Positions 33,277 to 51,850 of a stretch of DNA of 64,000 nt are shown here, in pieces. The DNA lies in assembly GCF_900176365.1 (NCBI RefSeq), contig NZ_FWXY01000002.1:248001-312000 (forward strand). The letters are read 5' to 3'. Position 1 is the first letter of the stretch. Each line of letters opens with the position of its first letter. Source of the stretch: Desulfocicer vacuolatum DSM 3385 (lineage in GTDB: Bacteria > Desulfobacterota > Desulfobacteria > Desulfobacterales > Desulfobacteraceae). Both the position numbers and the translations under genes were made by a program. Below the pieces are notes generated by a model that did not search any database, was not told where the DNA came from, and saw nothing but the letters and a program-made list of their open reading frames with translations.

Positions 33277-33306
33277 TTGGTTATTTAACGCCCATTGATT
33301 TGTCTA

Positions 33307-33789
33307 TCAATTTGTCAAAGAAATTTCTCCGGATTCCATGGGCAGGACCTGCTCCTGGGTGGGTGCCACACCGATTTCCACATAGGTGAACAGTTCATTT
33401 TCCCGGATGTTCACCACAGCCCAGCGATTGGCCTTCTGGAACACCAGCATGGTTATTTTGGGGGATTTAATCTGGCTGACAATGTTCCAGTTGTCTTTGA
33501 TCATGTTCATGTGGAAAAAATTGAAAAGGGAATTTTTCTCCACCCGTCCCCGGAGGGCAAGTACGCCGGAGGTGAGGCCGGGGGTGCTGATGATCACTGT
33601 GGCATCTTCATCAATTTTGAGCTCTTCGGGTACCAGTACGTCTTTGAAATCATAGTACACAGCTACGGATTCTTTTTTTTCCACTGTTGGTGTGGGTGTT
33701 TCTTTTTTTTGGGTCAGGCCTGTTGTGGTACAGCCGCCAACACATAGAGCTATCGCCATTAACAAACCCAATTTTATACCTGCTTTCAT
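33307..33789 (-). CDS. Conserved lipoprotein, function unknown
   Basis: The 160-residue protein has a signal peptide (IKLGLLMAIALCVGG) with a lipobox Cys at about residue 20 and a Thr/Pro/Lys-rich spacer. A compact domain follows, with YYDFKDVLVPEEL, STPGLTSGVLALRGRVE and a C-terminal FQKANRWAVVNI. I recognise it as a type of small envelope lipoprotein seen in deltaproteobacteria but know no function. It is 30 nt upstream of coaBC. Confidence 0.75.
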   Translation of the reverse strand: MKAGIKLGLLMAIALCVGGCTTTGLTQKKETPTPTVEKKESVAVYYDFKDVLVPEELKIDEDATVIISTPGLTSGVLALRGRVEKNSLFNFFHMNMIKDNWNIVSQIKSPKITMLVFQKANRWAVVNIRENELFTYVEIGVAPTQEQVLPMESGEISLTN

Positions 33790-33904
33790 TCTGTACTCCT
33801 TTTTTATTTTTTTTCGGCCTTGGTCATAATATCGCCATTCTATGATAAAATTTTATCTCACATATAGTGGCCCAGCTTATAATCAATTCTATTCTTCATT
33901 TATC

Positions 33905-33993: not shown

Positions 33994-34057
33994 CATTGGT
34001 ATCCATTTTAATGATGATGTTCTAAAACGATAAAGAGAGAAAGTCAAAACAATTATA

Positions 34058-34606
34058 TCAATCACCATTATTCATTTCAGCAAATTTTTTAAGTTGTTCA
34101 AGCTTCATATTGTAGGCAGCACTTTGATCCTTATGCGCATGTAAACGGCTTTCATATTGCTGAATTTTAATATTGATATCAGAAACCCTTTTATTGAAAT
34201 CATCCCATTCTGACCTGGAAATTTTTTTTCGAGCTTCCAATTTTTGACGCAGTATTGCCAATTGTTTATTTTCTTCTATGATCACTGCATAGTCTTCTTT
34301 AAGTTTTATGTTTTCTTGCATTAAAGCATCTGCTTTTTTCATTAGTACATCAGATAGCGCGTTGTTTTTATCTGGAATGGGAGGATGCGCAACCTCTTCT
34401 GTCTGTGAATTCTCCACAGGCTCGGTTTTCATCTCATTAATTACTTTCATTTGATCCCGCTGGGCAACGGGTAATTTTGAAAAATCATCTGTAAAAGATA
34501 AAATTCCATTTTCATCCCTGTATTGATATAATTGCGCAGATACAGGCAAATCCATAGTTAACAAAAAAATAAAACAAATGAGCATTCCATATTTTATTAG
34601 TTTCAT
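34058..34606 (-). CDS. DUF4124-type periplasmic protein with coiled coil
   Basis: The 182-residue protein has a signal peptide (GMLICFIFLLTMDLPVSA) and a DUF4124-like strand motif (LYQYRDENGILSFTDD). A long charged helical region (about 80-175) is predicted to be a coiled coil (KADALMQENIKLKEDYAVII). DUF4124 proteins are often encoded at the end of minor-pilin clusters, as here, 33 nt after pilY1. A role in pilus assembly is an inference from position. Confidence 0.75.
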   Translation of the reverse strand: MKLIKYGMLICFIFLLTMDLPVSAQLYQYRDENGILSFTDDFSKLPVAQRDQMKVINEMKTEPVENSQTEEVAHPPIPDKNNALSDVLMKKADALMQENIKLKEDYAVIIEENKQLAILRQKLEARKKISRSEWDDFNKRVSDINIKIQQYESRLHAHKDQSAAYNMKLEQLKKFAEMNNGD

Positions 34607-34639
34607 TTTTAACCCTTTGAACTCGCACCAAGTATGTCG

Positions 34640-37600
34640 TTACTCAGAAAGCTCCTTCCATGATCTCACAGAAGTTGTCACCGTAGCTCCCATGCTCACC
34701 GGATTATTGTATGGTCCACCACCAAAAGGGTTTATATTCCCTTCAGGGGTTTTAATATAAAGATGTTCATCAGTAATCAGAGGAGGAACACGAACATTTC
34801 CCGTGGTAAGCTCAAAATTCACAGTACCATCTTCAATGTCCACAGCATATGTTTTTCCGCTGTTGGCAGTATCATCAACAGCTTCACAGGGGTCTTCTGT
34901 TTCAGCAGTTGATGTTCCAAAATAAATATTACCGGCTGCGGCAAAGGCAGATGCAAAAACACGGTGCCCCTCCTCCAACTTCATGTACCAATCCAGCTTT
35001 ACATCAGCGTCAGATGCTGCCCCCTTATCACTTGTGTCTTCATAAGCAAAAAAATGATACCGGGTATCTGCGGTATTAATATCCTCATCATAATAAGGAC
35101 TATCTCCTGTACCGAAAAATATTTTAACATGATATTCCAACTCGCCTTTAGCGGAAAAGGTATTTTCTGTTATTACTGATGGAGAAGCGTACACAGGCTG
35201 AAACTGATATTTAGTGGCAACGGCATTACCGTCATCATCCGTAAAATCCGTATTAATAACGCAATTGGTAATACCGTATTTCACCGAATCTGGATCATCT
35301 GGGATATTTATTTTGTACATATACCCTTTATCAGATCCGATATAAATACGATCAATATATCCATTTTCATCGGAATCCACCACCGCAGGCTGACCGCTTG
35401 CAGTTCCGCCTTTTCCCCTGGCAGTTCCATCAGGATCATCATCCAGAAAAACCCTTTGAATCAGACTTCCATCCTCAATATTAACAATGTAAACGGAGGG
35501 ATAAAGATTATCATCATAGGTTTTACCTGACACAAAAAATGCAACCCAGGTGGGTGACCCGCTGACCAATATTCTGCCGATCTGGGACACTGCAGCAGAG
35601 GAACGACTCCTGTATAAATCCGGATCGGCAAATTCCCACATAAAAGATGGATCGGCTGGATTTGTGACATCCAGGCATGACACAGTATCACCACCGTTAC
35701 CTTGGGCACACAGTAATACCGTTTTCCAGGAAGAATTGATATTCACATCTGCAATGGTGGGAGATGCATCAACGTAGGCTTGATCATCCTTTTTTAAATA
35801 GTTATTCTTCAATCTTGATATGAGGTTTGCTGGAATAAAAGCCCATAATTCCTCACCGGTTCCATAATTTGGAACCCCTGACTCCCATAAAAAATACCCC
35901 CGATTCTCTTCAATACTTGTTGTATCCGGATTATCTCCTGAACGGAATTTACCGCCATCAAAGGCATGGAGCATACCATCCCGGGAACCCACATAAACCA
36001 CTGTCGGCCTCTCTTTCCAAGTATCCAGGAAAGCATCATAATCTTCCCTTTCATCGTCAGTAATCGCCGTTCCATAATACCATCGGGGTATTCCCGGCGG
36101 TATCTGAACCGCCGGGACAGAATGATCAATGGGGCCCAAAAGCCATTCTTTTGAAGTGGATGATCCATCTTTGTACCCGCGTACCCAGTTGACCAGCCAG
36201 TCACCGTCACTTTCATCAAGGGCATCATCATCATTCATATCATAAACATATCCATCCGGAATGATGTATGTACTGTCCAGGCCCAGCATTGCGTTGGTAA
36301 TATTGGATATTGTAAATTCAGACAATATGCTGGAAGCAGTGTAATAGGAATAAGATGCCTTAACCGGTACACCGTTTTCAGGGGGTGTATTAAAGGAAAA
36401 GCTGTATTCACCGGTAAAACGATTAATTGTTCCCACACCTCCAAGGCTGCCGGTGAGAACGTCGGTATGCTCATCCTTGAATGTTTCGGTGGTGTCAGTG
36501 ATATTTACAGTTAATGCAGAAACCGGATGATGGGCAAATGTACCGGAAAACAACACTTTGGCCCCATCCCCGATTCCCAGGGATTCTTCTACAACCACCC
36601 CATGTGTAATGTAAGGATAATAAATTTTTCTATCTACAGGGGATTTAAGCTGCAGCACTTCGCCTGCATCCCATAGGGTGGCAACCGCCGTTGTATTGGG
36701 ATCTTCAGGAACGTACAACTGAGAGGCTACCAGGTGCCCTCTTAAGACCTTGTCCGTCCATGAAATTGCAGGGGTCTCATAGGTGCCGGAATAGACAACA
36801 TTGGTCTGAACAACAGGCTCAGCCCGGGAAAAAGAACCGTTGGTGGCCACTGTTCCATCAATAAGGACATCTAAAATCTGTGGAATACAGGTTTCCTTGT
36901 CGCTGAACATCTCAGCCTTCCACAAGAGTGCTCGGCCGGAAAGTCCTTTTTCTGAAAAATCCAGACGGACTTTTCTTTTGGTATATTGTGGAGTTCCATA
37001 TACCCAGCCCGTTTCCGGATCACTTCCTGTAATGTTTTTTGTGGCATCTGTTGCATAAATTTCGTCCCAGTCGGTTATCTCAATCCAGGTATCCCCGTTA
37101 TCAATGGAAATGGAATAATCAATCTCAGTGAGCCCTGAGCAGGGCATGTTATCGTAAACCACAAAGGTGACTGCCGTGAAATAGGCATCCTCATCTTCAG
37201 GAACAATGGCAGCGCTGGACTGCAGGCTGGCGATACCCCCTGTTCTTCTTTCTATTTGAAATACCATATCATTGTGGTCCGCATCTCCGCCTCCCATCAA
37301 ATCTTCCCAGCCAAGTATCCATTTGTTAGGTTTGTCCGGCGGAGCTCCTACGATAACATGGGAATATTTGGCCCCCCAGGTTATCGGCAGTTTATATTCC
37401 CCGGACAGGGTAACGTCAAAATAACTTGCCATCCTTGTGATGGCAGGGCTTGCCAGCCATCCACCTTCAGTGGTACAACTCCCTTCCCCAGACTCACCCA
37501 ATTTATAAATTTTATCAAATGTGCCTGAGCCGCAAGCTCCGTATGTATCTGGATTCCAGTCTTTTTTGGTAAAAAAAACACGGGTTGGATCTGAGTTGTC

Positions 37601-39424
37601 CCATCGCTTACTTGCGGTTAGAAAAAAAACCAGCTCTGTTCCACCGGCAATTGTTCCAATGGATTTTTTCATATCAAGGGGAGAAACCTTACCATCCCCA
37701 TTGACCACAAAGGGATAGTCCGTACCGTCGTCATAGGCCGCCAGGGCAGTTTCACTGGAAGTGGGAAACGACCCGTTGCCATATTCCGTGTCAAGGACAC
37801 CGTCCCCACCGCTGCAACAGCCACCTGTTTCATTGTCATCATAAATTTTTATAAAAAGTGGGTGCCTTTGGGCAAGGGGTATTTTATCCCATCCTTTAAA
37901 GGTTCCATCGGCTTCAACGGCATCCTCTTTAAGCATCCAGCCGAAATCCGAGACGTACCCGGCTCCTTCATACAAAAAAGTGACAAAGACTTCCTGGGTA
38001 AAAGGGATTTCAATATTATCGGGGTTTATGGCTTCATTGCCGGTGTCCAGTTCAATTACACCACTTGTTGACACACTTGTGTTTTCCAGACTGAAATTGG
38101 ATGCATTAAAACCTCCGCTATAGTCGGTGGTCGTGTTGGTGGAGCACCCGGGAATACCGTTGTCCGCAGGATCATCATCTGAAGACTCTTTAAAAGTTAC
38201 ACTGATGGTATGATCTTCAGTGACATCTAAAAATTCATATTGATCATCGGTTAGAACTGCAGTGTTATCACCATCCACGGTTAAAACGTCCACCATATAG
38301 CCTTCATCAGGTACCACATCAAAGATAATATCAGCATTATCCACAACATCATTACTGCCGGAGGGACTAATACTTCCATTGCTGCTGGCTGATGCTGTAA
38401 TGGTATGTAAAAACTGAGAAAAAGTAGCCCTGATGGTGTGATTTGCAGAAACAGGGCTAAAAGTGTATTGATCATCAAGCAATGGTAAAACACTGGAAAA
38501 ATCCACAGTAACATCACTTATTTCATACCCGGTATCTGGAACAATGTTAAAAACCGGTTCACTGTTCTTGGTTGCTGTGAACAATCCGGCGGTTATTTCC
38601 CCATTTTCAACGGATATGCTCCCATTTTCACCACTGTCAACGGTTATGGTGTAAGTTGTCGGTATGGGCCCGTTATCTGTGTCAAAATCTTCAAAGTTAA
38701 CCACACATTGATCACCTTTATCATGAGAAGTTACAAACAAACCTACATCCTGTATCCCATTGGCCTGGTTAAGATCTTTACTTTTAATCTCTATCCAATT
38801 TGTCCCGTCCAAAGAATAGAAACCGGTAAAGTTATATTTATTGTTATCAAGTTGCTTCACAAGCTTGAGCCAACATGGATAGGATGATGATGGAGAACGT
38901 CTGGTGTTTTCATTTCTATCCAGAAGCCCATTGTTATTATTATCCCATTGAAAAGCAAATCCATTACCGGGTGTAACAGCAACCATACAATAGCCAGGGC
39001 TCTGACCGTCATTGGAGATATCATTTCTCACCATAATACCGGCCTTGGCCCAGCCATTGGTATTATCCTGGGAAGTTATTTTGACTGTAACAGAAAAATC
39101 TCCCTCAATATCCTCAAGATAGTATGCTCCATACTCATCTGCACCAGTCCAGACATCATTCCCGGCTGCAGTAATGCTCATGGACGTGGCAGATAGGATG
39201 TTAAACGAGCTTATTTCATCCACTTCGTTTACAGAATCATGGAATTTCCATTCGGATGCGTTAAAAGAAAGTGAATCTGCCATAAGGGGTAAACTGAAAA
39301 CCAGGCTCAACAACATGCAACAAAAAAAGAGGAACGCTTGAAGTGTGTTGCGTTCCGTTTTTTTATCTGACTTATTAGATGATCTGATTCGAAATAACGT
39401 GCTTAAAAAAATATGTGGTGTCAT
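34640..39424 (-). CDS. pilY1: PilY1-like pilus-tip protein, long form (1594 aa)
   Basis: After a signal peptide (FLFFCCMLLSLVFSLPLMA) comes a concanavalin-like DUF1349-type domain (about 50-250), then two bacterial beta-repeat units of about 70 residues (TITVDSGENGSIS, HTITASASSNGSIS), and a DUF4114-type calcium-rich module ending in GGGDADHNDMVFQIE. The C-terminal third is the PilY1 beta-propeller with VYVGSRDGMLHAFDGG, LWAFIPANLI and the calcium loop DSDENGYID. PilY1 is a type IV pilus tip adhesin and mechanosensor. AAAGGAGA sits 6 nt before the ATG. It follows the pilX-like gene by 31 nt. Confidence 0.9.
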   Translation of the reverse strand: MTPHIFLSTLFRIRSSNKSDKKTERNTLQAFLFFCCMLLSLVFSLPLMADSLSFNASEWKFHDSVNEVDEISSFNILSATSMSITAAGNDVWTGADEYGAYYLEDIEGDFSVTVKITSQDNTNGWAKAGIMVRNDISNDGQSPGYCMVAVTPGNGFAFQWDNNNNGLLDRNENTRRSPSSSYPCWLKLVKQLDNNKYNFTGFYSLDGTNWIEIKSKDLNQANGIQDVGLFVTSHDKGDQCVVNFEDFDTDNGPIPTTYTITVDSGENGSISVENGEITAGLFTATKNSEPVFNIVPDTGYEISDVTVDFSSVLPLLDDQYTFSPVSANHTIRATFSQFLHTITASASSNGSISPSGSNDVVDNADIIFDVVPDEGYMVDVLTVDGDNTAVLTDDQYEFLDVTEDHTISVTFKESSDDDPADNGIPGCSTNTTTDYSGGFNASNFSLENTSVSTSGVIELDTGNEAINPDNIEIPFTQEVFVTFLYEGAGYVSDFGWMLKEDAVEADGTFKGWDKIPLAQRHPLFIKIYDDNETGGCCSGGDGVLDTEYGNGSFPTSSETALAAYDDGTDYPFVVNGDGKVSPLDMKKSIGTIAGGTELVFFLTASKRWDNSDPTRVFFTKKDWNPDTYGACGSGTFDKIYKLGESGEGSCTTEGGWLASPAITRMASYFDVTLSGEYKLPITWGAKYSHVIVGAPPDKPNKWILGWEDLMGGGDADHNDMVFQIERRTGGIASLQSSAAIVPEDEDAYFTAVTFVVYDNMPCSGLTEIDYSISIDNGDTWIEITDWDEIYATDATKNITGSDPETGWVYGTPQYTKRKVRLDFSEKGLSGRALLWKAEMFSDKETCIPQILDVLIDGTVATNGSFSRAEPVVQTNVVYSGTYETPAISWTDKVLRGHLVASQLYVPEDPNTTAVATLWDAGEVLQLKSPVDRKIYYPYITHGVVVEESLGIGDGAKVLFSGTFAHHPVSALTVNITDTTETFKDEHTDVLTGSLGGVGTINRFTGEYSFSFNTPPENGVPVKASYSYYTASSILSEFTISNITNAMLGLDSTYIIPDGYVYDMNDDDALDESDGDWLVNWVRGYKDGSSTSKEWLLGPIDHSVPAVQIPPGIPRWYYGTAITDDEREDYDAFLDTWKERPTVVYVGSRDGMLHAFDGGKFRSGDNPDTTSIEENRGYFLWESGVPNYGTGEELWAFIPANLISRLKNNYLKKDDQAYVDASPTIADVNINSSWKTVLLCAQGNGGDTVSCLDVTNPADPSFMWEFADPDLYRSRSSAAVSQIGRILVSGSPTWVAFFVSGKTYDDNLYPSVYIVNIEDGSLIQRVFLDDDPDGTARGKGGTASGQPAVVDSDENGYIDRIYIGSDKGYMYKINIPDDPDSVKYGITNCVINTDFTDDDGNAVATKYQFQPVYASPSVITENTFSAKGELEYHVKIFFGTGDSPYYDEDINTADTRYHFFAYEDTSDKGAASDADVKLDWYMKLEEGHRVFASAFAAAGNIYFGTSTAETEDPCEAVDDTANSGKTYAVDIEDGTVNFELTTGNVRVPPLITDEHLYIKTPEGNINPFGGGPYNNPVSMGATVTTSVRSWKELSE

Positions 39425-39455
39425 TTCGGTCTCCTTTTGAATGTCTGTTCATACT

Positions 39456-40070
39456 TCAGGGGGTAATTGTAGTCTGAGCAGTAAAACTGGTGATTGAGTC
39501 TACATCATCTGATTTATAACTTTTCCCGGCCCCGGCCCCGGCCTGGGCTCCATAACCCGTTGCCGTTCCACTGTTTAAAAGTCCTGACAGCCCAACTTCA
39601 ACCCCTGCAGAAGATCCATTTGCAGCTGTTGCCCAGGAAGTAACATTAATTATACCATCGCTATCTGTAATAAGAGAGCCATCATCATTATTATCCCGCA
39701 CACTAACCGTGTATGAACAAACCTGCCCAATTGACTTATTTTTAATCCAGATAAAGGATGAATCCAGTCCAGCCTCTACGCCAGGTTCATCTGTTGAAAG
39801 GGCAAAAGTCCAGTCAGATGAAGAAGTTCTTTTAAAATTTTCAATCATCCGGTTCATCAAAATAGCGGTACAATGCTCAATACCCGCTTCTGCTGCAAAA
39901 AAAGCCTGCTGTTTATTTTTTTCCGCCCCTGCAATCATTGTTTCAATGGTTGATGTGTTCGTGGCCGCAATACCTATCACTGTTAAGATAACAAGAAAAA
40001 GCATTGAACTTAATAAGGCAAATCCATTTTCATTATTCAAGAATAATGAATATTGACGCTCTGCATTCAT
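39456..40070 (-). CDS. pilX: PilX-like minor pilin, cluster 1
   Basis: The 204-residue protein starts with NENGFALLSSMLFLVILTVI, the PilX pattern in which G/F is followed by a hydrophobic helix without the +5 Glu, then AFFAAEAGIEHC. A Gly/Ala-rich tract (GYGAQAGAGAG, near 180) is notable. Minor pilins with PilY1 form the tip complex of type IV pili. A start at 40082 is also possible. Confidence 0.82.
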   Translation of the reverse strand: MNAERQYSLFLNNENGFALLSSMLFLVILTVIGIAATNTSTIETMIAGAEKNKQQAFFAAEAGIEHCTAILMNRMIENFKRTSSSDWTFALSTDEPGVEAGLDSSFIWIKNKSIGQVCSYTVSVRDNNDDGSLITDSDGIINVTSWATAANGSSAGVEVGLSGLLNSGTATGYGAQAGAGAGKSYKSDDVDSITSFTAQTTITP

Positions 40071-40099
40071 CTGAGCCCCCATTTGATAATATTTTTATA

Positions 40100-40184
40100 T
40101 TAAAGATTTCACAAATACGGGGAGTATGTATGCTTTGTTGTGGCCTGAGTCAAATCAGAATAAGGTCTGACCGTGGCAATTATT
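40100..40184 (-). repeat. Degenerate solo B-module repeat
   Basis: GATTTCACAAATACGGGGAG, then TTTGTTGTGGCCTGAGTC and AAGGTCTGACCGTGGCAAT, align with B but several stem pairs are lost. It lies between pilW and pilX of cluster 1. Confidence 0.65.
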
Positions 40185-40262
40185 GAAACAGGCAAGCCCC
40201 CCGGACTCTTTAACTCAGGCTTGTTAACGGTTTAGAGCAGCAATTTTAAAAACCTGTACTCA

Positions 40263-41408
40263 TTAATTGTCAAGATCGAAATTATGAACCTGAACAGTAA
40301 AAGACAGTAAACGTCGATGATACCCATCACTCTGGGTTGCTGCGGTATGATCCTCTATTCCGGGTCTTTTGCTGGTGATTCCACCTTTATATTCCCTGGA
40401 TGTACGCCCAAGAATGGTCACCCGAATGAATCGAATTTTTTCTATATCTGTATCCGATAACTCCCCACTTACCAAATTCCCCTCATCAAACCAGTCGTCA
40501 TTGGAATCATCCGGGTTAGCCGGATCATAGGATAAGTTGATCACACCATCCCCATTGTAATCACCACAAAATCCTATTTGAATATCTTCAATATTCTCAG
40601 AAATTTTATTTGCATTCCCAGCAACAGACCTTCTCAAATAATTTTTTTTATCTATATAGTATCCAATATTTACCAAAGAGTTAGAATTAAAAAAACTAAT
40701 AGTGCTGCCATCTGGATAGGTATTCAGTTGTTTATTAGAATAAGTTACTCCATCAAGAGCTGTAAAGTTAGGCCCATTAGAAATTGTACTGTCGGAGCCC
40801 TCTTTTTTGGCAGACACACCTGTCACAAAAACAATATCAGATTTTGAACCATCCGGGGATGTGATGAGTGCTTGAAATCCAAATTTGGGAGAATCATAAT
40901 CCACTCCTCCGCAGGAGCATCCCTCAGCCCACCATGAGTATGGGGGATGATCTTTCATGTATACCTTAACCTCAGCAACTGTTGAAGTGGGTGGTTTTTC
41001 ACCTTGAAGTAAAAGTTGGGGTAAATCAGCACAAGATCGATTAGCACCCGGTGTCGATCCACAACCACCTTCGTCATCATCCACATAGGTTATTGACAGG
41101 GTATCTGTATCGTTATGAACTTTTGAGTCTCCCTGAGTATTATTTTTAAATGTCAAAGGTTTTATCAATTGCCCGTCAAAGGCAAGAGTTTGTACTCCAT
41201 AACCTGTCATTCTCAAATCTTTTTCAATATAATATTTAGCCATCCGGACGTTTTGCTGCATTCTTGCAATATCTTCCTGAAGAATATATGATTTATTACT
41301 ATTGTCAAAAATAGACAAAACACCGGCAAGAACAATGCCTGAAATAGCAAGGCTGATCAAAATTTCAACCAGAGTAAATCCATTTGAGATATTTTTTAAT
41401 GGTTTCAT
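40263..41408 (-). CDS. pilW: PilW-like minor pilin, cluster 1
   Basis: The 381-residue protein has the prepilin motif SNG/FTLVEILISLAISGIVLA and the PilW family continuation YYIEKDLRMTGYG. A long C-terminal domain contains Cys-rich loops (EGCSCGG) and a calcium-like GDYNGDGVIN. The ATG at 41408 gives a 10-residue leader. It lies 13 nt after pilV and forms part of the tip complex. Confidence 0.85.
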   Translation of the reverse strand: MKPLKNISNGFTLVEILISLAISGIVLAGVLSIFDNSNKSYILQEDIARMQQNVRMAKYYIEKDLRMTGYGVQTLAFDGQLIKPLTFKNNTQGDSKVHNDTDTLSITYVDDDEGGCGSTPGANRSCADLPQLLLQGEKPPTSTVAEVKVYMKDHPPYSWWAEGCSCGGVDYDSPKFGFQALITSPDGSKSDIVFVTGVSAKKEGSDSTISNGPNFTALDGVTYSNKQLNTYPDGSTISFFNSNSLVNIGYYIDKKNYLRRSVAGNANKISENIEDIQIGFCGDYNGDGVINLSYDPANPDDSNDDWFDEGNLVSGELSDTDIEKIRFIRVTILGRTSREYKGGITSKRPGIEDHTAATQSDGYHRRLLSFTVQVHNFDLDN

Positions 41409-41421
41409 TTTAATAGTCTGC

Positions 41422-41856
41422 CTATTTAGAAACAATCGTTGCAAAAGAAAGAGAATGTGTTCTTTCCCCAGACGACCAGGAAGATTTCACAGTTATTGTT
41501 TTAAGACCATTGACCGGACTATTGGAATCAACTGTAGTTGTCCATGAAAATACGCCGTCAACTCCTTGCTCATCATCTATATCGTCATAAGCCATGCCCT
41601 TGTACCCACTTAACTTATCTTCAATCAATGCTGTGGCTTTCGTAATATCACTGGCCCGGCTATTTCCTTTAATTGCAGAAATCTGCATGCCGGCAATGGC
41701 CAACAATCCCACGCCCAATACCACCGTTGCAATCATCACCTCAATAAAAGTAAATCCATTATTGCCAGCAATCGAATTTTTTCGTTTTTTATTCCCAGCT
41801 TGTTCCGTTCCATTTCTTTGTAGAGATAAACCCGGTCGATTCTTTACCAATTGCAT
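41422..41856 (-). CDS. pilV: PilV-like minor pilin, cluster 1
   Basis: The core shows NNG/FTFIEVMIATVVLGVGLLAI followed by AGMQISAIKGN, as in PilV. The chosen ATG at 41856 overlaps the upstream FimT-like gene by 68 nt, because no ATG, GTG or TTG lies between that gene's stop (41789) and the prepilin motif. The leader of about 37 residues is long and basic. The gene frame extends further to 42138 but there it is the other frame of fimT. Confidence 0.75.
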   Translation of the reverse strand: MQLVKNRPGLSLQRNGTEQAGNKKRKNSIAGNNGFTFIEVMIATVVLGVGLLAIAGMQISAIKGNSRASDITKATALIEDKLSGYKGMAYDDIDDEQGVDGVFSWTTTVDSNSPVNGLKTITVKSSWSSGERTHSLSFATIVSK

Positions 41857-42364
41857 AGGTGGTTTTTTTATTATTTTCAAGGTAAACATATCCAGACAAG
41901 CCCGCTCCCATGGCGTTGAACGTTGCATAATTATTATTAAAGGTGACATCATCGTCGCTAAAACTCTGCCCACCGTCTTGCGTTGCATCTTTTGATGCAG
42001 CGCCATGTCCATATTGCACCCCACCGTTGTCAGGTAATGGTACTTCCTTTTCAATGGTATTGCCGGATATTGCCCAGGAACCGTCTGCACCCTTTTCCGA
42101 ACACACAAAATATTTTTTAGCCCCTGTATCAAAAACAATGGCCCAGTCTTTACTCTGTTTCATTGCATTTATTTTGGCAAGCTGCATATCACTGTACAAA
42201 TTTCTTGCAGCCTTTTTCAAATGATAATCCGGCAACCAGTCAATAATATTAGGTACTGCGGTACCAATGACCACACCGGCAATCCCGACGGTAATCATTA
42301 ATTCTAAAAGAGTAAAACCGGTATTCTTTTTGCGTTGTGGGAATTGCATTTGATCAATATTCAT
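41789..42364 (-). CDS. fimT: FimT/GspH-like minor pilin, cluster 1
   Basis: The 191-residue protein has the prepilin motif NTG/FTLLELMITVGIAGVVIG, followed by the FimT region LKKAARNLYSDMQLAKINAM and a GspH-type beta domain. It is the first gene of cluster 1. ATG at 42364 follows an AGG 7 nt upstream; a GTG at 42370 is in frame. The 475-nt region upstream should hold the cluster promoter. Confidence 0.85.
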   Translation of the reverse strand: MNIDQMQFPQRKKNTGFTLLELMITVGIAGVVIGTAVPNIIDWLPDYHLKKAARNLYSDMQLAKINAMKQSKDWAIVFDTGAKKYFVCSEKGADGSWAISGNTIEKEVPLPDNGGVQYGHGAASKDATQDGGQSFSDDDVTFNNNYATFNAMGAGLSGYVYLENNKKTTYAIGKESTGFISTKKWNGTSWE

Positions 42365-42839
42365 AGACACCTGTTATTTGACAATTATTCTAATCACACT
42401 GCAAAAAAATTAATAATTTAAAACCGCATGAAAATTAAGCGTTCATAATTTTGAACTTTTTAAAAAAACATCACACACCAACACCTATGCCAAATTTAAC
42501 TTTAATTTAAACACCGCCAAATCCAATTCTATATATTGCGCTCGTACATATTCAGATATCAATATATGGGTTTAAATATAAATTCAAGTAAACTCAGCGA
42601 AGGTGTTACACACCAAACCCATTAATAGAGGAAAACAAAAGGTCTCAAAGGAAGAATGTCAATTGCTAATAACCTTACGGAATAATGACATTTATGTCAA
42701 ATGGAAAAAATTCCATCTTTTTACCATAAGGATAAATTAATAATAAGCTGATCTTCATTGTCCTACAAAAGTTTTAAAATACAAATTGGGGGCTTTGTCA
42801 TAACGTCGGTCACTTCCCCCTGAGTCTTAACATAATACC
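42365..42839. other. Intergenic region upstream of cluster 1, no gene
   Basis: This AT-rich stretch contains no ORF of note. A weak sigma54-like match on the minus strand (TGGCAT, 5 nt, TTGG; 42478-42492) lacks the invariant C of the -12 box. At 42789-42815 lies GGGGCTTTGTCATAACGTCG, which recurs inverted at 48384-48410. Confidence 0.4.
42789..42815 (+). repeat. 27-bp element, copy 1 of an inverted pair
   Basis: Matches 48384-48410 (minus strand) at 23 of 27 positions, sharing GGGGCTT and GTCATAACGT. It lies just outside the left end of the insertion sequence. Confidence 0.6.
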
Positions 42840-42847
42840 CCAGTCCA

Positions 42848-44336
42848 GGGCGCATTCCCATTTTCCCGGTTTTAAAAAGGTCTATCTTTTAGAGCAAAAA
42901 ACATGATATCCTCTGCTCTGCTGAAATGAACATAAATGGATTGTGCTGATGAAGTCCTTGCTTGTCTTAAAGAACTGGAAGAAGATCCAACCCGCTTGGT
43001 TCGTAACGCTAAAGAATTGGAACAGATGGAGCTGGAAATCCTTGAGTATACAAATCGGATAAGCGCCTTGCTTTTAAAAAAAAGATCCAAACCTCAGTAG
43101 ATTCCTCTGAACAGGCCAATCAGGAAAAAGAATTGATGTCCAGTTGGCCGGGGCGGATGAAAAGCGAAGGGTTTGAGACCGTTTGGATTCAGCTTTGTAC
43201 AGGTAGTTCTGTTGATATACGTGTTCGATACTATAGAAGATCCTGTGATCGCCGCAATGGAAAAAGATATAAAGGTGCATATGCTGGTTTAATCCTTCTT
43301 GGGGTCCATGATCGCTGTTCGCCTGCTCTGGCTTCTATGGTGAGTTCTTGGTCAGCCTTATTGAGTTCTTTTGAAGAAATCCGTCAGGTGCTTTGTGACC
43401 GTGGTATGACGTTGGATATAAAGGTCATCCGTAAATTGACCTATCGATACGCAGAGCGGGCTCGAGCCGAGCAACAAGCGGGTCGAATCCCATTAAATGA
43501 TGGAGACTTACTTGAGGGTCGGCGAGTCGTTATCAGCACTGATGGTGGACGTACACGGCTCAGAGAAAAGAAAAGGGGTCCAAAAACCAAAAAAGATAGA
43601 ACCCGATTTCGTGGTGCATGGCGAGAACCCAAGTTTTTGATCATTTATGTAGTGGATGCCCAGGGAAAGCAATAGAAAAGCCTCACCATTTATTGATGGC
43701 TGTTTCAACGGTCCGGATGGTGTATTCCACTTGTTAAGGGGTTATTTGAACTCTCTTCATATTCAGGACTCAGACAAAATACTGTTTGTTGCAGATGAAG
43801 CGCATTGGATTTGGAATCGAATCCCCGGACTGGTAAAAGCATTGGGTTTGGATCCTAAGCGTGTGTATGAACTTCTTGATTTTTACCATGCTGTGGAACA
43901 TTTGGCTACAGTAGCAGGCTTAAGGAAGACCTGGTCGTCCAAGGGCGCAAACGCTGGGTGTCGAAACAACGACGGCGCCTGCTTAAAGGAAAGGCAGTTG
44001 AGGTCGTACAGGCCGTCCAGAAACTTTGCAAAGGCAGAAATAGTAAGGCTATCAAGACAAAACGGGATTATTTTGTGCGCAATGAAAAGAAACTTGATTT
44101 CTCAACCGTAAAAGCGTTGAACTTGCCCATTGGCAGCGGTGCTATTGAAAGTTCAATTCGGAGAGTGGTGAATTTACGTCTTAAAGGCCCATGCACCTTT
44201 TGGTGTCAGGAGAATGCAGAAAAAATGATTATGCTGCGATCGTTTTATAAAGCTGGGCGTTGGAACTGCCTGAAGCAGATGGCAAACACACATAATCCAG
44301 TGCCAGCGGCATAACCGGGAAAATGGGAATGCGCCC
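42848..44336 (+). mobile_element. ISKra4-like insertion sequence, decayed copy
   Basis: Perfect 24-bp terminal inverted repeats begin GGGCGCATTCCCATTTTCCC (42848-42871 and 44313-44336). They are flanked by an 8-bp direct repeat CCAGTCCA at 42840-42847 and 44337-44344, the target duplication. The 1489-bp element carries one broken transposase gene. It separates the two minor-pilin clusters. The family name rests on transposase motifs, GGG termini and 8-bp duplication. Confidence 0.88.
42936..44314 (+). pseudogene. ISKra4-like transposase, frameshifted
   Basis: The coding series runs through several frames. ORF 1 (42936-43100) reaches an A8 run at about 43073-43083, where a -1 shift enters the frame of 43133-43675. 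That frame ends in TAG at 43673; the sequence resumes in another frame (PFIDGCFNGPDGV) to about 43920, then again shifts to the last part (43958-44314). Conserved parts are ISTDGGRTRL, FVADEAHWIWNR, and GSGAIESSIRRVVNLRLKG with ENAEKMIMLRS, which supply the likely DDE acidic residues. The A8 shift could be programmed; the other two look disabling. Confidence 0.82.
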
Positions 44337-44412
44337 CCAGTCCATCCCCACTCCTTAAACGAAAGCCAGCTACCCGTTTAATGTAACCCCACCTTAAGCA
44401 GGTAGCCGAGTT

Positions 44413-47400
44413 TTATTCACCTTCCCGCCACCAAAGATAAAAAAAGTTCCGGGTGGGGGCCAGGGGATCCATTGAAATCACCCCGGGCTGACCATCCGTA
44501 TCCGTATCGTCATCCGGAGTGGGAGAGCCAACGGTAATGAAAAGCTTGGGCTCCTTTTCAGAAATCACCACCACCGGTTCAGATGGAATCCCGCCCCCGA
44601 TATCTTCATAGGGCTCAAGTTCCACATCTTCACCGTCGGCTTCAGGATCAAAATCAATGGCAGGTTTGCCGGTTTTATAGTTCAGGGCATACAATCTGGC
44701 ACCGCCACCGGGCAGACAGGGGTCATTGTTGGGTAAAAAAGAAGTAATATAAACCGTTTTATAAAACACCGCCCCTTCGGCCAGTATTTTTTCACCGGTT
44801 TCCATATTAAAATACCAACCGTTATCAATGCTTCCATTCGTGTCCACATCCCCTGCCGGATCATCCAAAACAGGAGGAACAGAAATGGATGAAGTGGTGT
44901 TCACCAGATCAGTCAGCGTTACCGGAACCGGTGTCCCCGAAGCATCTGCGGTTACATGATAATCTTTAAAGGCCAGAATCATATCCGGACCCGATGCGGT
45001 GTTACAGGCATCTTCCCTGTCCCCGGTGCCTGCAAAGACAAGATCATACCCCTTTTCCAAAGTGACCCGGGGAGCATAGTAAAATTTTAAATCGGCATCA
45101 TTGGCATTAAAAACAACCTGCGCCTTCCAGGTATTTATATTTTCATCACATTCCGGAAATACCAAGGGATTTCCTGCGGTATCCACAAAGTTGCCCACCC
45201 GCCAGATACGACCGGCCATATCCCCCACATAAAGCTTATCAATAAAACCGTTGCTGTCTTCATCAACAGCATTGACGGCACTGGGGATAGATGCGGTCAT
45301 ATCTGAATCAACGGCCATGTTATGCCCGGAATACCATTTCTGCACCACAGTGCCATTTAAAATACGGATGGCAAAGATGACCTTGCCAAGGGAATTGTCA
45401 GCACTGTAGCCCCCACCAATAAACATGACCGGAGTGCCCACGGTGTCACCAACACCGGTTTTAACAATACCAAAGGCCGGTTCAGACCAGCTTTCCCCAA
45501 GCCCTGGAAGGGTACTGCCGTTGAGCTGCCACATGAACTTGGGCACTTCAGGATCCGTAATATCCAGGGCAAAGTAAACATCCCCCCCTTTTCGCTCGCC
45601 ACTGATGAGGACAACCTGATCCCCGGAATCCACAATGCCGTCACCATCGACATCTGAAAAATAAATTTTCGGTGTGGAATCCACATAAAAGGGATGTGTT
45701 CCCCCTTCAATCAAATACTTCAGACGCGGTAGATGGTGGGTGGGGATAAATCCCCATGCTTCGGTGCCAAAATTGGTTTCCACATTGGCTGCACTGGTGG
45801 TCTGATCTTTTACGGCATGGAGCATGCCGTCATTGGCCCCAAAAAACACATAGGATTCAGAGGTTCCGTCAGTGTAGCGATATTCAAAGATCACCGGTTC
45901 ACTGTGAAGCACATCGCCAGTGATAACGTCTCTGTTTTCATCAATATTACCGTCACCATCCTCATCCAGCGCGTCCGCGCCGCGGATATAGTCAACAAGA
46001 GTATTAACGCCATCTATGGGGTTGCCAAGAATAGATGCTGTGAATCCCCATGAAAAAATCAAATTATCAGTTGAAAATTCATTAAATTCGTTGGTTAAGT
46101 TATTTGAAAAACCAATATATGTATAAATATTTCGATCGGCATTATCAATATAGTTGCATCCACCACCAGTGCAGTCTTGCGTGGAATAATCAGCATTGGC
46201 CCAGTTAATGGTGGCCCAGTAAGGTTTTGCAGATGCCTTGATGGCCCCATTGCTTTCAGTGGCCACATTTCCTTCTTTATCAATGATATTCAGATTATCG
46301 TCCAGACCAAATTTAAGGACATTGCCTTTCCAGAAATTCCCTTCCTGGGGGGTGAACAGAGCCAGATATATTTTGTTGCCACTCAAGGTTCTTGTTACAG
46401 GAACCACCGGAGCTGTAAAGGTGCTGTTACCGGTGAGAATGGAGTTTACCGCATTCAGTATGGCCGATGACAAATCCTCTGCGGAATCTGCCGTAAAATG
46501 GTAATCTCCATAGTTGCTGTTGGTGGTGTCATATAAACTTTTATGACCATTGCCGTTGTTGCTGGTGTTGGTGAGATACGCATTGCTGGCCAGGCCGGTC
46601 ATGACACCCACGGTATAGGTCATCACATTTTGAAACCCGTCCACGTACCCCACCATATCATGGGTGTACAGATAAAATGCCACATCATCAAGCCATGTAC
46701 TGCCCCCTGTGTTCTGTGGTATCTCTAACACCGTACTGTCCACCGTCACCGTGCCCGCACTGCCCGTCCCGCTATCAGTGGTATCTCCGTCAAAGTCGGA
46801 CAAGGTCGTGGGCAAATATTGGTTAGCCCCGCTTTGATCCTCTGAAGAAATGCCCGAGGACACCACAATAACATATTGATTCTGGCAATAATATTCAGAT
46901 TCCACCCCGGACGAAGGTGAATCATAATATCCCCCGATGGTGGCAAGCCCTTCGGCAAGTGGCGAATAGGTGACCGTTCCCATATTATTAATGTTATTCA
47001 CATAATTGGAAGTAAGTACATTGGAGGCGGGATCGCCATCCACCACCGTTGCCACCACATCCCCCAGGGGTTGAACATTGGATGCTCCCTCCGTGGTGGA
47101 AGTGAAATTATATATACCGAAATGGGCCTTGTTGGCTGTCATTTTACCAACGGAGAGCAGGGCTTGTTTGGCATAGTAAAAACGACTTTTATCAGGCAAA
47201 TCACTTCCGTCACCCGTGTAACTTCCAAAAAAAAGCCAGTTGAGGTAATTCTGGGAATACCGAAAAATGGTGGCATTATCTATGATACTCAGCCCGGTTG
47301 CGGCATCAGCCTGTCCAACACTTGAGGGCTGAACAGGCAAGGTGATGGTCCTGCCGTTGATGGTCCAGGTACCGCCGGAGTCTGCATCCAGACCATTAGC

Positions 47401-48075
47401 GTAACTGTCCGGCTCCAGGGTGGGTAAAATTTTTACCAGACACCAGACACCTCCATGGTTGACCAGGGAATATCCATCGGCATTCAAAAAGCCTGATACT
47501 TCTTCCGCCTCCGGCGTTGTCACCACCGGGGGATCAATGATCTGATCAAGTGTACCTGTGGCAATGCTATTTTTATTTTTATACCTCTGAATGGTTTCTC
47601 CCACAATAAAAGGACCATTGGATATTTCCACCACCTTAAGCTCAAGCGTTCCGCCCGCAGGAGCGGCCTCGGTGGGCTCCCTTACTTCTATCAAGGCCGT
47701 TGCCCTGGAAGTTAATCCTGTTATTTCTTTATCAAAAGAATAACTGCCCTCATCCACATTGGTGAGCACCAGAGTTTTATATTCGTTCCCGGAAACAGGG
47801 GGATCAGTTTCAGAATTGTTTACCACTTCAACAGTGGCGTTCTGGGGGGTATAATCAACATTTTTATCATAGTCTCCATGCCATTTAATCTGCTCCATCT
47901 CTGCGCCGTTATCCAGAAGAAAGACAATATTGGGCGGTACTTGATCTGTGGAAACGGTGAACATGCAGGTATCATCGGCCCAAGTCAATTGACATAAAAA
48001 AAAGAGGGACATAAAAATAACCATGAAAAGGGCAATATTACGTCTATTTTGCAACCCCATATTTAAAATCGCCAT
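44413..48075 (-). CDS. pilY1: PilY1-like pilus-tip protein, cluster 2 (1220 aa)
   Basis: A signal peptide (NIALFMVIFMSLFFLCQLTWA) precedes a von Willebrand A-like region (PPNIVFLLDNGAEMEQ; YVIVVSSGISSEDQ). Its metal site is altered: DNGAE replaces DxSxS. The C-terminal PilY1 propeller has VFFGANDGMLHAVKD, AWGFIPTHHLPRL, and a textbook calcium loop DVDGDGIVDSGD. AAGGAGG lies 6 nt before the ATG at 48075. Unlike the cluster 1 protein, it has no DUF1349 or beta-repeat modules. The IS lies directly downstream. Confidence 0.92.
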   Translation of the reverse strand: MAILNMGLQNRRNIALFMVIFMSLFFLCQLTWADDTCMFTVSTDQVPPNIVFLLDNGAEMEQIKWHGDYDKNVDYTPQNATVEVVNNSETDPPVSGNEYKTLVLTNVDEGSYSFDKEITGLTSRATALIEVREPTEAAPAGGTLELKVVEISNGPFIVGETIQRYKNKNSIATGTLDQIIDPPVVTTPEAEEVSGFLNADGYSLVNHGGVWCLVKILPTLEPDSYANGLDADSGGTWTINGRTITLPVQPSSVGQADAATGLSIIDNATIFRYSQNYLNWLFFGSYTGDGSDLPDKSRFYYAKQALLSVGKMTANKAHFGIYNFTSTTEGASNVQPLGDVVATVVDGDPASNVLTSNYVNNINNMGTVTYSPLAEGLATIGGYYDSPSSGVESEYYCQNQYVIVVSSGISSEDQSGANQYLPTTLSDFDGDTTDSGTGSAGTVTVDSTVLEIPQNTGGSTWLDDVAFYLYTHDMVGYVDGFQNVMTYTVGVMTGLASNAYLTNTSNNGNGHKSLYDTTNSNYGDYHFTADSAEDLSSAILNAVNSILTGNSTFTAPVVPVTRTLSGNKIYLALFTPQEGNFWKGNVLKFGLDDNLNIIDKEGNVATESNGAIKASAKPYWATINWANADYSTQDCTGGGCNYIDNADRNIYTYIGFSNNLTNEFNEFSTDNLIFSWGFTASILGNPIDGVNTLVDYIRGADALDEDGDGNIDENRDVITGDVLHSEPVIFEYRYTDGTSESYVFFGANDGMLHAVKDQTTSAANVETNFGTEAWGFIPTHHLPRLKYLIEGGTHPFYVDSTPKIYFSDVDGDGIVDSGDQVVLISGERKGGDVYFALDITDPEVPKFMWQLNGSTLPGLGESWSEPAFGIVKTGVGDTVGTPVMFIGGGYSADNSLGKVIFAIRILNGTVVQKWYSGHNMAVDSDMTASIPSAVNAVDEDSNGFIDKLYVGDMAGRIWRVGNFVDTAGNPLVFPECDENINTWKAQVVFNANDADLKFYYAPRVTLEKGYDLVFAGTGDREDACNTASGPDMILAFKDYHVTADASGTPVPVTLTDLVNTTSSISVPPVLDDPAGDVDTNGSIDNGWYFNMETGEKILAEGAVFYKTVYITSFLPNNDPCLPGGGARLYALNYKTGKPAIDFDPEADGEDVELEPYEDIGGGIPSEPVVVISEKEPKLFITVGSPTPDDDTDTDGQPGVISMDPLAPTRNFFYLWWREGE

Positions 48076-48435
48076 TTTTCCCTCCTTTTGAATCATATGA
48101 AATCAGCCACACAGCATGGTCAAGGTTTAAATTTAGGAATAATCAATTTTTCAGCATATTGTAGTTAGTTGCTCAAAATCAGCCATTATAGGGGATTGAA
48201 GAGATGAGATGACATCTACGCTGTTTAGGTCTTGCTGGAATTTTTTTCTAACCATAACACTTTGCCGACATGACAATAATGGGATTGATCATAAACTGGG
48301 CCACGATACGTGAGATTAAATTTTATCAACCACAACACACTGTGATTAAAAATATTAATTTTTATCACTAAGGTTTTATGACAAAATGGCCAACGTTATG
48401 ACCAAGCCCCAATAATGCAAAGCCTGCTCAACATT
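48076..48435. other. Intergenic region between pilX-like gene and pilY1, cluster 2
   Basis: About 360 nt with no gene. It contains the second copy of the 27-bp element (48384-48410, minus). The gap suggests that this pilY1 has its own promoter, unlike cluster 1 where pilY1 follows pilX by 31 nt. I did not find a convincing sigma54 or sigma70 site. Confidence 0.4.
48384..48410 (-). repeat. 27-bp element, copy 2 of an inverted pair
   Basis: Minus-strand GGGGCTTGGTCATAACGTTG and onward matches 42789-42815 on the plus strand at 23 of 27 positions. The pair encloses the IS and pilY1 of cluster 2. Confidence 0.6.
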
Positions 48436-48909
48436 TTAAAAACCAATTCTGTAAAAACCTGACTCAATAACAATTTCTGAATTTCCAGAACCATCATACC
48501 CATTACAGGTCATCTCATATCTATGGGCTTTAAATTTAGACACTTCATAACCTGATCCCCTGGGGGCTTCAGAAAAACCTGCATAACCCACGGTACCGTT
48601 AAATGACGCGTTATTGGAATTAAAGTCAAAATCTCCTGTTACACCCGATGAAAAGCCGAGGGAGCTTCCCACTGTGATATTATTTTCGCCATATAAACCG
48701 GTGTGGGGTGGTACATACCCCCTTGCCGACTCGGCTGCATAAAAGGCCATGGTATACAAACGATCATTCCGGGCAATGGCCAATTCAGTGGTACTGGTAT
48801 TAATGGAAAAAATCCCCAAAATAGTCACCACAAACAATACCATCAATGCCACCAATAAAGTGGAGCCTTTTTCACTAATCAAGGGTAAAATAAAGTGTTG
48901 TTTTTTCAT
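48436..48909 (-). CDS. pilX: PilX-like minor pilin, cluster 2
   Basis: The 157-residue protein has EKGSTLLVALMVLFVVTILG, a PilX-like start with a small residue rather than Phe at +1 and no +5 Glu, followed by TMAFYAAESARGY. The rest is unlike the cluster 1 protein. ATG at 48909 follows GAGG; an in-frame TTG at 48918 would overlap pilV by 8 nt. Confidence 0.78.
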   Translation of the reverse strand: MKKQHFILPLISEKGSTLLVALMVLFVVTILGIFSINTSTTELAIARNDRLYTMAFYAAESARGYVPPHTGLYGENNITVGSSLGFSSGVTGDFDFNSNNASFNGTVGYAGFSEAPRGSGYEVSKFKAHRYEMTCNGYDGSGNSEIVIESGFYRIGF

Positions 48910-48910
48910 C

Positions 48911-49342
48911 TCATTCAAGCCTCGCTATGAGCTGCTCAAGGATACACGTCTCACCACTGTCAGGAACCACTGTGACAACGATCCGTTTTGCATCAAGTGG
49001 AATGGTTGAATCATCAGCATTCTCTTGCACAGTCCATGACAAATCATAGCCTGACAAAGGTTGACTTGCAGGAGTTCGGGCAGTTCCCTGGGTGCGATCA
49101 AGGTCAGAATCAGTATAAGGCAAACCCATCAACCGTTCAATTTCATTGGATGCCAGGGAAAATTTTTCAGTAATTTTCAGGGCAGCGGCATTGCCGTTAA
49201 TGGCACTGATCTGCATTTTGGCCACCCCGAGAATGCCAAAGGCAAAAATAACCAGGGCCACCATGATTTCAATGAGGGTGAACCCGGCTGTCCCATGTTC
49301 TTTATGAAATCTGCATTTTTTTTGCTCTGTCACTATATCCAT
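48911..49342 (-). CDS. pilV: PilV-like minor pilin, cluster 2
   Basis: The 143-residue protein has TAG/FTLIEIMVALVIFAFGILGV and AKMQISAINGNAAALKITEK, clear PilV features, and ends close to a single Cys (GETCILEQL). AAGGAGA is 8 nt upstream of the ATG. It lies 15 nt after pilW in the same direction. Confidence 0.86.
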   Translation of the reverse strand: MDIVTEQKKCRFHKEHGTAGFTLIEIMVALVIFAFGILGVAKMQISAINGNAAALKITEKFSLASNEIERLMGLPYTDSDLDRTQGTARTPASQPLSGYDLSWTVQENADDSTIPLDAKRIVVTVVPDSGETCILEQLIARLE

Positions 49343-49357
49343 GGGATGCTCTCCTTG

Positions 49358-50101
49358 TCAGAAATAAAGATTTCGACATTGAACCACGGTGGTCAATATG
49401 CGGTTATTAACATTACTCTGCCTTTGCTCATTAAAATCAACCCTTGCTTCAATGGTGATCTGAATGCTTCTGATTTCAGAAAGATCTGTGGTGGCGTTAC
49501 CGTTTAAATCAAGATATTCAAACACAAGCCTCTCGATATTTTCCGCAATAACCCCACGACTTCCTGTGCCCACCTTTCTACCAATGTCCGAATCACCGTC
49601 ACTGTCTGCATCATACAAGTCATATTCAACGCTCTCCAGTTCTCCGGGCTCATCAGTGGTGCCGTCATTATTATTATCACGGTAGTCACCGTCTGCAACA
49701 AAGGTAAATCCCAAGGGATTTCCAACACTTCCATCACCTGCAGCCGTTATGCCAGCCCCGGCCATGCCATCGGGGTCATACCCCGCCATCCTGATATCTT
49801 TGATCATAATGTATTTGGCAGTTCTTATGACCTGCTGCATGTCAACAATCTGTTGCTGGGCAAGTTGGGCATTCTGTTGTCCCTGATATGCATAAAAAAT
49901 GGCAGCGGCCACCACGGTTGAAATCACCATGGCAACCAGCAATTCAATCAGGGTAAATCCCTTATTTTTTTGGCATGCCCCATTTTCCAGTTTACATTTT
50001 TTAAAAAAATCTACCCATTTCCCAGAAAAACTTGATGAAAAAGTGCAAACTACTTTTGAATTTGTATGGAAAATGGCATTTTTTTGATCAATTATTTTCA
50101 A
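49358..50101 (-). CDS. pilW: PilW-like minor pilin, cluster 2
   Basis: The frame contains NKG/FTLIELLVAMVISTVVAA and the PilW continuation KYIMIKDIRMAGYDPDG, then acidic calcium-like loops (DNNNDGTTDEPGE, DADSDGDSDIG). The start is uncertain: a TTG at 50101 gives a leader of about 47 residues, and no better ATG or GTG is found before the prepilin motif. At 247 residues it is shorter than the cluster 1 protein. Confidence 0.82.
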   Translation of the reverse strand: MKIIDQKNAIFHTNSKVVCTFSSSFSGKWVDFFKKCKLENGACQKNKGFTLIELLVAMVISTVVAAAIFYAYQGQQNAQLAQQQIVDMQQVIRTAKYIMIKDIRMAGYDPDGMAGAGITAAGDGSVGNPLGFTFVADGDYRDNNNDGTTDEPGELESVEYDLYDADSDGDSDIGRKVGTGSRGVIAENIERLVFEYLDLNGNATTDLSEIRSIQITIEARVDFNEQRQSNVNNRILTTVVQCRNLYF

Positions 50102-50132
50102 TATCTTACATTCCCATATGGGGTTGTTTAAA

Positions 50133-50645
50133 TCACTCGGTTCTGAGAGTACCCGCAGAATTGATAATAATTTTTTTACTTGTCATGTTTGAATTTCGAA
50201 GGATGATGTTTCCCTCAACTGCTCCGTGGGGTCGCAATCCCCTGCTGTTAAAGCAGACAAAATATCCAGATGTATTAACAGGAAAAGTAGAACTCACCAG
50301 ATTTATCCCCGAAGGCAGATTCATATTCTTTAAAAAGGGTTCGCTGCCATTTTGAACATCATCATTTTTTATGCCTCCGACACCTTCCCCATTATCCAAA
50401 AACGACAGACAGGTGCCCGCGCTCAAATCAAAAACAACCACCGCATTTTCATTTTTTGTAATTGCCGCCATTTTCACTTCCTGTACACAGGAAATAATAT
50501 CCCTGGCAGCACTCCTGAGACGAAATTCAGGAATCCAGGTTGTCATCAGAGGAATGGCAATACCAACCATAAGGCTGATGATGGCAATGACAATCATCAC
50601 TTCCATTAATGTAAAACCGGCATTAAATTTTGGAAATTTTATCAT
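50133..50645 (-). CDS. fimT: FimT/GspH-like minor pilin, cluster 2
   Basis: The 170-residue protein starts MIKFPKFNAG/FTLMEVMIVI, a short prepilin leader with Glu at +5, followed by FRLRSAARDIISCVQEVKMA and a GspH-type domain with two Cys pairs. It is the first gene of cluster 2. The longer frame to 50762 is rejected because the leader fits at 50645. Confidence 0.85.
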   Translation of the reverse strand: MIKFPKFNAGFTLMEVMIVIAIISLMVGIAIPLMTTWIPEFRLRSAARDIISCVQEVKMAAITKNENAVVVFDLSAGTCLSFLDNGEGVGGIKNDDVQNGSEPFLKNMNLPSGINLVSSTFPVNTSGYFVCFNSRGLRPHGAVEGNIILRNSNMTSKKIIINSAGTLRTE

Positions 50646-51225
50646 GTTATCAAATTTTCCATCTTTGTAAGGGAAAGCACACGGCAACCATAATTTCCTG
50701 TCCCATCTGTTGACATTTTTTGTACCACAAAAATATTTTTCACAAAAACACCGGCAAACCATGGATTAAAATATAAACATAATATTTTCATAAGGATTAT
50801 TAGTAATATTCAATGCAAGATTGATGCACTTTTCACAAACATTATAAAAACACCTTTTTATATATGCAAATACAATCATCTTACTACACATTTATCTCAT
50901 CCACCAAACATTTAATTTCTTGCACAGATGTTGGCATAATCCCAAAAATCAGCAATCTGACAATTATTGTCAAAAAAACTGCCATTTTTTATCATTTTTC
51001 ACAAAACAGCCTCATATTGAAACATCATAGCCATACTCCCTATAAGCAATTGGCTCTTTTTAAAAACTTAACTCCAAAATATGAGGGGAATTACTCTGGT
51101 AAATATAAAACAGAAATAAGATATGGCATATTTACGATGAATTTATTTAAAGGATATAGATCAGTTGAAATAAGCTCGATAATAAGATAAAATCTCAACA
51201 TATCTAAATAAAGGAAAGCGTAATA
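50646..51225. other. Divergent intergenic region, AT-rich
   Basis: About 580 nt between the divergently transcribed fimT of cluster 2 and the coiled-coil gene. It must carry promoters for both. I see no ORF with a convincing start, no strong hairpin, and no repeat-family copy. Confidence 0.4.
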
Positions 51226-51792: not shown

Positions 51793-51850
51793 TACTCACC
51801 CATCCAGTCTTTTTATATTGACACTACCCAGGAAATGGATCCCTCCCCAT

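Follow-up and report, generated by a model that had tools for sequence, protein, structure and literature searches.

Two diverged minor-pilin/PilY1 sets beside a coaBC-like gene in Desulfocicer vacuolatum as probable alternative pilus tips

The analysed window, a stretch of 64,000 nucleotides from Desulfocicer vacuolatum DSM 3385 (contig NZ_FWXY01000002.1, positions 248,001-312,000; coordinates below are window positions), carries two tandem sets of genes for minor pilins and the tip protein PilY1, here called set A and set B (Table 1). Both lie on the minus strand, with B preceding A in the direction of transcription, and a defective insertion sequence (IS) lies between them. All ten genes are intact and open; each of the eight pilins matches N_methyl or PilX_N above the Pfam cut-off, and both PilY1 proteins match T4P_PilY1 (cut-offs used, in bits: N_methyl 21.2, PilX_N 25.5, T4P_PilY1 28.1, DUF4114 27, and DUF4124 22). 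Each set consists of four minor pilins with prepilin signals followed by pilY1, the composition of a type IVa pilus (T4aP) minor pilin/PilY1 tip cluster. An initial annotation of this DNA had described two full but diverged sets in tandem, with the orders fimT-V-W-X-Y1 and fimT-W-V-X-Y1; the gene calls and the domain matches over cut-off bear out both descriptions, at approximately the positions it gave.

Table 1. Features of the minor-pilin/PilY1 region, in window coordinates.
Feature	Position	Strand	Remarks
coaBC (dfp)-like gene (presumed name), slot anchor	32077..33276	minus	counterpart in 77/86 family genomes
Lipoprotein-like gene, slot-edge marker	33307..33789	minus	homologue adjoins coaBC in most slot loci; no Pfam match
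DUF4124-like gene 3' of pilY1-A	34058..34606	minus	DUF4124 18.5 bits, below cut-off
Set A	42370-34640	minus	order fimT-pilV-pilW-pilX-pilY1, then DUF4124-like gene
pilY1-A	34640..39424	minus	1594 amino acids; T4P_PilY1 54.1, Flg_new_2 39.5, DUF4114 34.5 bits, over cut-offs
pilX of set A	39456..40082	minus	PilX_N 48.4 bits; A clade support 98.8 in PilX tree
pilW of set A	40263..41444	minus	PilW 33.5 and N_methyl 31.5 bits, over cut-off
pilV of set A	41422..41800	minus	N_methyl 25.8 bits; signal NNGFTFIEVM; start codon uncertain, open frame to 42138
fimT of set A	41789..42370	minus	N_methyl 28.8 and GspH 27.9 bits, both over cut-off
Defective IS between sets	42848..44336	.	broken reading frames; 24-bp terminal inverted repeats
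Set B	50762-44413	minus	order fimT-pilW-pilV-pilX-pilY1
pilY1-B	44413..48096	minus	1227 amino acids; T4P_PilY1 39.1 bits; no N-terminal Pfam module
pilX of set B	48436..48918	minus	PilX_N 48.5 bits; B clade support 95.7 in PilX tree
pilV of set B	48911..49342	minus	N_methyl 29.8 bits; TIGR02523 39.9 bits, below cut-off 52.2
pilW of set B	49358..50101	minus	N_methyl 38.3 bits
fimT of set B	50133..50762	minus	N_methyl 30.8 bits; class III signal GFTLMEVM
TfpB-like ATPase (accessory extension type), divergent from set B	51818..53791	plus	NF053534 650.7 bits, below cut-off 850

The propeller is the sole part common to PilY1-A and PilY1-B, and a search of the own genome gave a single sequence match between them (32% over B residues 776-969). 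The N-terminal part of PilY1-A contains two Flg_new_2 stretches and DUF4114, with DUF1349 below cut-off, and none of these modules occurs in B, in which the propeller alone is recognised; the N-terminal parts have no modules in common, as the initial annotation had it. DUF4114 was found in 13 of the 14 A-type PilY1 members scanned, and the corresponding region of the PilY1-A model has a pLDDT of 78 and gave weak, partial matches in a fold search (TM < 0.25). The AlphaFold model of PilY1-B is poor (mean pLDDT 41); by eye only, strand and helix motifs of PilY1-B resemble a VWA domain with a degenerate metal site, and a Pfam VWA match is present in 0 of 14 scanned B-type members. Both PilY1 proteins carry a D-x-D-x-N-G-x-x-D motif that, judged by eye, resembles a calcium-binding loop.

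Searches with PilY1-A and with PilY1-B, each against 194 genomes of the order (G, L and C numbers are our labels for genomes, loci and contigs), found orthologues of both in many families. A tree of 69 PilY1 propellers supports clade A at 100 and clade B at 98.7, with 19 rows in each, and the two window proteins resemble their other-family orthologues (mean 58% and 51% over the propeller; the PilY1-B orthologue in G037 is 63% identical) more than they resemble other types. Gene order follows the same division: among cassettes with all four pilins present, fimT-W-V-X is the order in 11 of 11 B cassettes and fimT-V-W-X in 10 of 11 A cassettes other than that of the window, the exception (G159) joining an A-type PilX-PilY1 to the order otherwise seen in B and to B-like PilW and PilV. 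Because gene order is bound to lineage and the PilY1 clades are separate, the pair in the window does not represent a local duplication, and sets A and B are, to judge from their sequences, separate old lineages, each with its own gene order. A local tandem duplication after which the copies diverged quickly would explain why the same kinds of genes lie adjacent and in the same direction, but with PilY1 proteins closer to other-family orthologues, separate clades, and differing gene orders that are each common to distant families, it is so improbable that we reject it; the phylogenetic check proposed in the initial annotation for telling duplication from transfer comes out against the former.

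Decay of one set, named in the same annotation as a sign against two functional tips, was not seen: all ten genes are open with their domains kept, and orthologues of each set are widespread. The open genes with their domains, the calcium-loop-like motif seen by eye in both PilY1 proteins, and the recurrence of the same B-A tandem in G163 (L089), a member of a different family, make it rather unlikely that only one set works under most conditions and that its neighbour is a passenger, newly arrived or silent, which persists by chance or serves some rare condition. On the side of a passenger are the IS between the sets, the distribution among same-family relatives, which carry either A (G241, G021) or B (G261, G023, G242, G263, G250) and not both, and the precedent of Myxococcus xanthus, for which cluster 2 is reported to be of this kind and in whose growing cells PilY1.2 lies close to the limit of detection (PMC9109919, PMC7541494).

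The whole genome contains exactly two PilY1 genes, both in the window, and encodes one T4aP assembly machine. One PilM is clearly over cut-off, and beside it lie PilN-, PilO-, PilP-, and PilQ-like genes, followed by a sensor kinase and a response regulator (assigned by position, size, and first residues); a second PilM match is weak and passes only with its neighbours in the frame. One PilB is over cut-off (C37:120391), and so are the PilT-family ATPases, present as a PilT/PilU-like pair. With a single PilMNOPQ operon, a single canonical PilB, and no PilY1 beyond these two, both sets most likely share a single T4aP machine, by analogy with M. xanthus, in which minor pilin/PilY1 clusters 1 and 3 are each sufficient for pili on one machine (PMC7541494). 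Alternatively, the sets could serve two filaments, such as the T4aP and an MSHA-like or type II secretion system (T2SS)-like apparatus on C37, where a second, incomplete type IV filament system (L134 7705-16843) comprises a SPOR-domain secretin, an ATPase, T2SSF, and weak PilN/PilO matches; two adjacent PilA-like pilin genes on contig C50 (L137 8049-8456 and 9603-10019) likewise provide two major pilins besides the two tips. We consider this quite improbable, as the C37 system is without PilY1, the same four pilins occur in both sets, the sets are adjacent, and only one PilM is clearly over cut-off.

The gene that anchors the region (32077..33276) is one that we take, from general knowledge, to be coaBC (dfp)-like. 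Because A orthologues in G241 and G021 and a B orthologue in G261 occupy the same place beside this gene, the region 5' of it was mapped across the family (61 loci, of which 41 span 12 kb or more). Minor-pilin cassettes were found in 31 of the 41 longer loci, counting G270, which has only a fimT-like and a pilV-like gene, and four slot loci (G007, G261, G019, and G264) hold two cassettes. The cassettes represent many PilY1 lineages and stand in either orientation; A is alone in the slot of G241 and G021, and in G261 a third type lies behind B. Since a relative's genome has only 0 to 3 PilY1 matches, finding a cassette no more than 20 kb from a given gene should be rare by chance, according to our own estimate rather than a computed control. 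On this count, the position next to coaBC is a slot for tip cassettes across the family, and its differing contents suggest that pilus tips are exchanged as modules.

The B-A tandem might instead be ancestral to the order and have been broken up by loss, not assembled by transfer at the slot. The shared order in G163 and the presence of A (G241, G021) or B (G261) in the same slot would agree with this; nevertheless, we regard it as unlikely, because three A loci in the family of G163 have no preceding B within the sequence available there (G187 C559, about 6.3 kb; G078, about 3 kb; G187 C502, about 1 kb), other slot tandems (G261, G007) pair different types, and neither clade places G163 as sister to the window.

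Two further features of the slot deserve mention. Three genomes of genus g13 (G019, G264, G268; L160 803-8693, L173, L191) have slot clusters with oversized PilW (618-848 amino acids) and PilX (341-439 amino acids), two divergent clusters each in G019 and G264; no PilY1 was detected in the slot clusters of these three genomes, whose pilins may carry the adhesive part as a fusion. Three genes from the slot, a gene for a tyrosine recombinase (Phage_integrase, 30135-31028) is found in the window and in the same place in G241, G021, and G261; it is probably a housekeeping XerC, with a role in exchange at the slot being possible.

Within the cassettes, PilX keeps company with PilY1. Both type clades are intact in the PilX tree, which requires two changes of PilY1 type, the minimum, versus 23.4 in shuffles; FimT, PilV, and PilW require 11, 8, and 10 (shuffles 20.8 to 22.5). 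Changes of family number 5, 6, and 4 for FimT, PilV, and PilW versus 7 for PilX. Over 50 cassettes, pairwise distances correlate with those of PilY1 at 0.81 for PilX and at 0.42, 0.56, and 0.46 for FimT, PilV, and PilW. A tree with a single B clade is rejected for FimT (2e-50), PilW (3e-9), and PilV (0.024), and one with a single A clade for FimT only (p 0.033); the nearest relatives of PilW-B come from same-family cassettes of both B and other types. Since PilX follows PilY1 exactly whereas FimT and the others do not, the PilX-PilY1 pair behaves as an exchangeable unit. On these trees and distances, PilX and PilY1 are inherited as a pair, FimT is the pilin tied most closely to its host lineage, and the other two, PilV and PilW, go either way, siding with the host lineage in set B. 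We see in this co-inheritance a fit to published tip models, which place FimU at the base and PilY1 on top, with a strand common to PilX and PilY1 (PMC13190605).

Taken together, sets A and B probably encode alternative tip (priming) complexes that a single type IVa pilus machine can use, brought together in a slot where tips would be exchanged. FimT, PilV, PilW, and PilX would form the tip base in each set, crowned by PilY1; the common propeller half of PilY1 would dock on PilX, while the unrelated N-terminal halves would face outward and differ in ligand. The two sets would have been assembled side by side in the coaBC-adjacent slot where the family keeps and exchanges tip cassettes, with the distal PilX-PilY1 pair exchanged as a unit and the base pilins, FimT above all, tending to remain in their host lineage, presumably because a fit to the major pilin already there is required. 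Two alternative tips had also been proposed in the initial annotation; of that proposal, the intact, old, and conserved sets, the single machine, and the different N-terminal modules stand as observations, whereas alternation between the tips, their expression, and their ligands are what we infer. For set A, the ligand may be a polysaccharide bound via DUF4114, because this domain of M. xanthus PilY1.1 has been discussed as sugar- or exopolysaccharide (EPS)-binding (PMC9109919).

Several points weigh against this interpretation. The genome is a draft (5.04 Mb, 80 contigs, 98.4% complete), and the second filament system on C37, together with T2SS genes in the window, leaves room for one set to serve a different filament. 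In 10 of 41 relatives, no cassette occupies the slot within the examined stretch. In set A, PilV and PilW also follow PilY1 (p of a single clade 0.51 and 0.39), so the module boundary is not fixed, and FimT, PilV, and PilW still correlate with PilY1 (r 0.42-0.56; 0.64-0.80 within family), so exchange is not free.

More tentatively, the place beside coaBC in Desulfobacteraceae would be a tip-exchange locus at which cassettes arrive, replace one another, and stack, and at which PilX-PilY1 is swapped onto resident base pilins. If true, a lineage could change what its pili stick to while the machine remains unchanged. The general idea of different tips for different surfaces would thereby gain testable parts: a fixed chromosomal address for tip variation, and a boundary between PilX-PilY1 and FimT with the other base pilins that predicts which proteins need joint swapping. 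It would also provide a handle on attachment in sulfate reducers; among these, PilY1 is reported to be highly expressed in a partner of methane-oxidising archaea (PMC10553843).

Turning to the remaining features, the initial annotation had missed the IS, the DUF4124-like gene at the end of set A, and the conservation of the coaBC setting, and had also overlooked the family-wide slot and the PilX-PilY1 module. The inverted repeats of the IS are exact (42848-42871 and 44313-44336), and a longer second copy, 95-97% identical, lies on contig C35. Homologues of the DUF4124-like gene occur near cassettes of several types. In set B, a geneless gap of 339 bp (48097-48435), corresponding to about 40 bp in G261, separates pilX from pilY1; it has no Rfam match, and a search of 33000-53000 matched zero Rfam families. 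Sigma-54-like promoter patterns gave no signal (20 matches versus 25.6 expected by chance), and sigma-70-like sites (61 versus 46.7 expected) and terminator-like stems (27 versus 17.3) come from patterns too loose for promoter assignment. A coiled-coil protein with repeated MDQRFE/KVDQRF units (51226-51792) is encoded between set B and the gene for the TfpB-like ATPase, and its homologue adjoins an A-type locus in L083. In other families (L074, L081, L083, L090, L098, L105), homologues of the ATPase directly adjoin pilY1 genes of A or B type, a hint that an accessory extension motor is tied to the tip sets.

Several minor pilin/PilY1 sets per genome, their functional specialisation, and DUF4114-type PilY1 in Thermodesulfobacteriota are already known (PMC13190605, PMC8833165, PMC9109919; here and below, statements refer to the available parts of the cited papers). 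New here are the coaBC slot and the PilX-PilY1 module boundary; no report of such a slot or exchange unit was found in the literature searched, which lacked most subscription journals and included some papers in part. In Xanthomonas translucens pv. graminis, the minor pilin/pilY1 cluster likewise differs strongly from one pathovar to another, in contrast to the conserved main components of the T4P (PMC10699075); that variation lies within one species, and the available parts of the paper report no module boundary or second set. Desulfonema ishimotonii, a member of Thermodesulfobacteriota, has a PilY1 with N-terminal DUF4114 as in set A; it is named in PMC13190605 as a structural hit, and its likeness to set A is by description only. 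The closest parallel is provided by clusters 1-3 of M. xanthus, which also comprise several sets of four minor pilins and PilY1 with a conserved propeller and divergent N-termini, used with one T4aP machine (PMC7541494, PMC8833165, PMC9109919, PMC13190605). One M. xanthus PilY1 type has an N-terminal DUF4114, as does PilY1-A, whereas PilY1.3 has a VWA domain, for which the scanned B-type members gave no Pfam match. Finally, the M. xanthus clusters lie at separate loci (MXAN_0362, MXAN_1020, and MXAN_1365; PMC13190605), in contrast to the tandem arrangement in D. vacuolatum.

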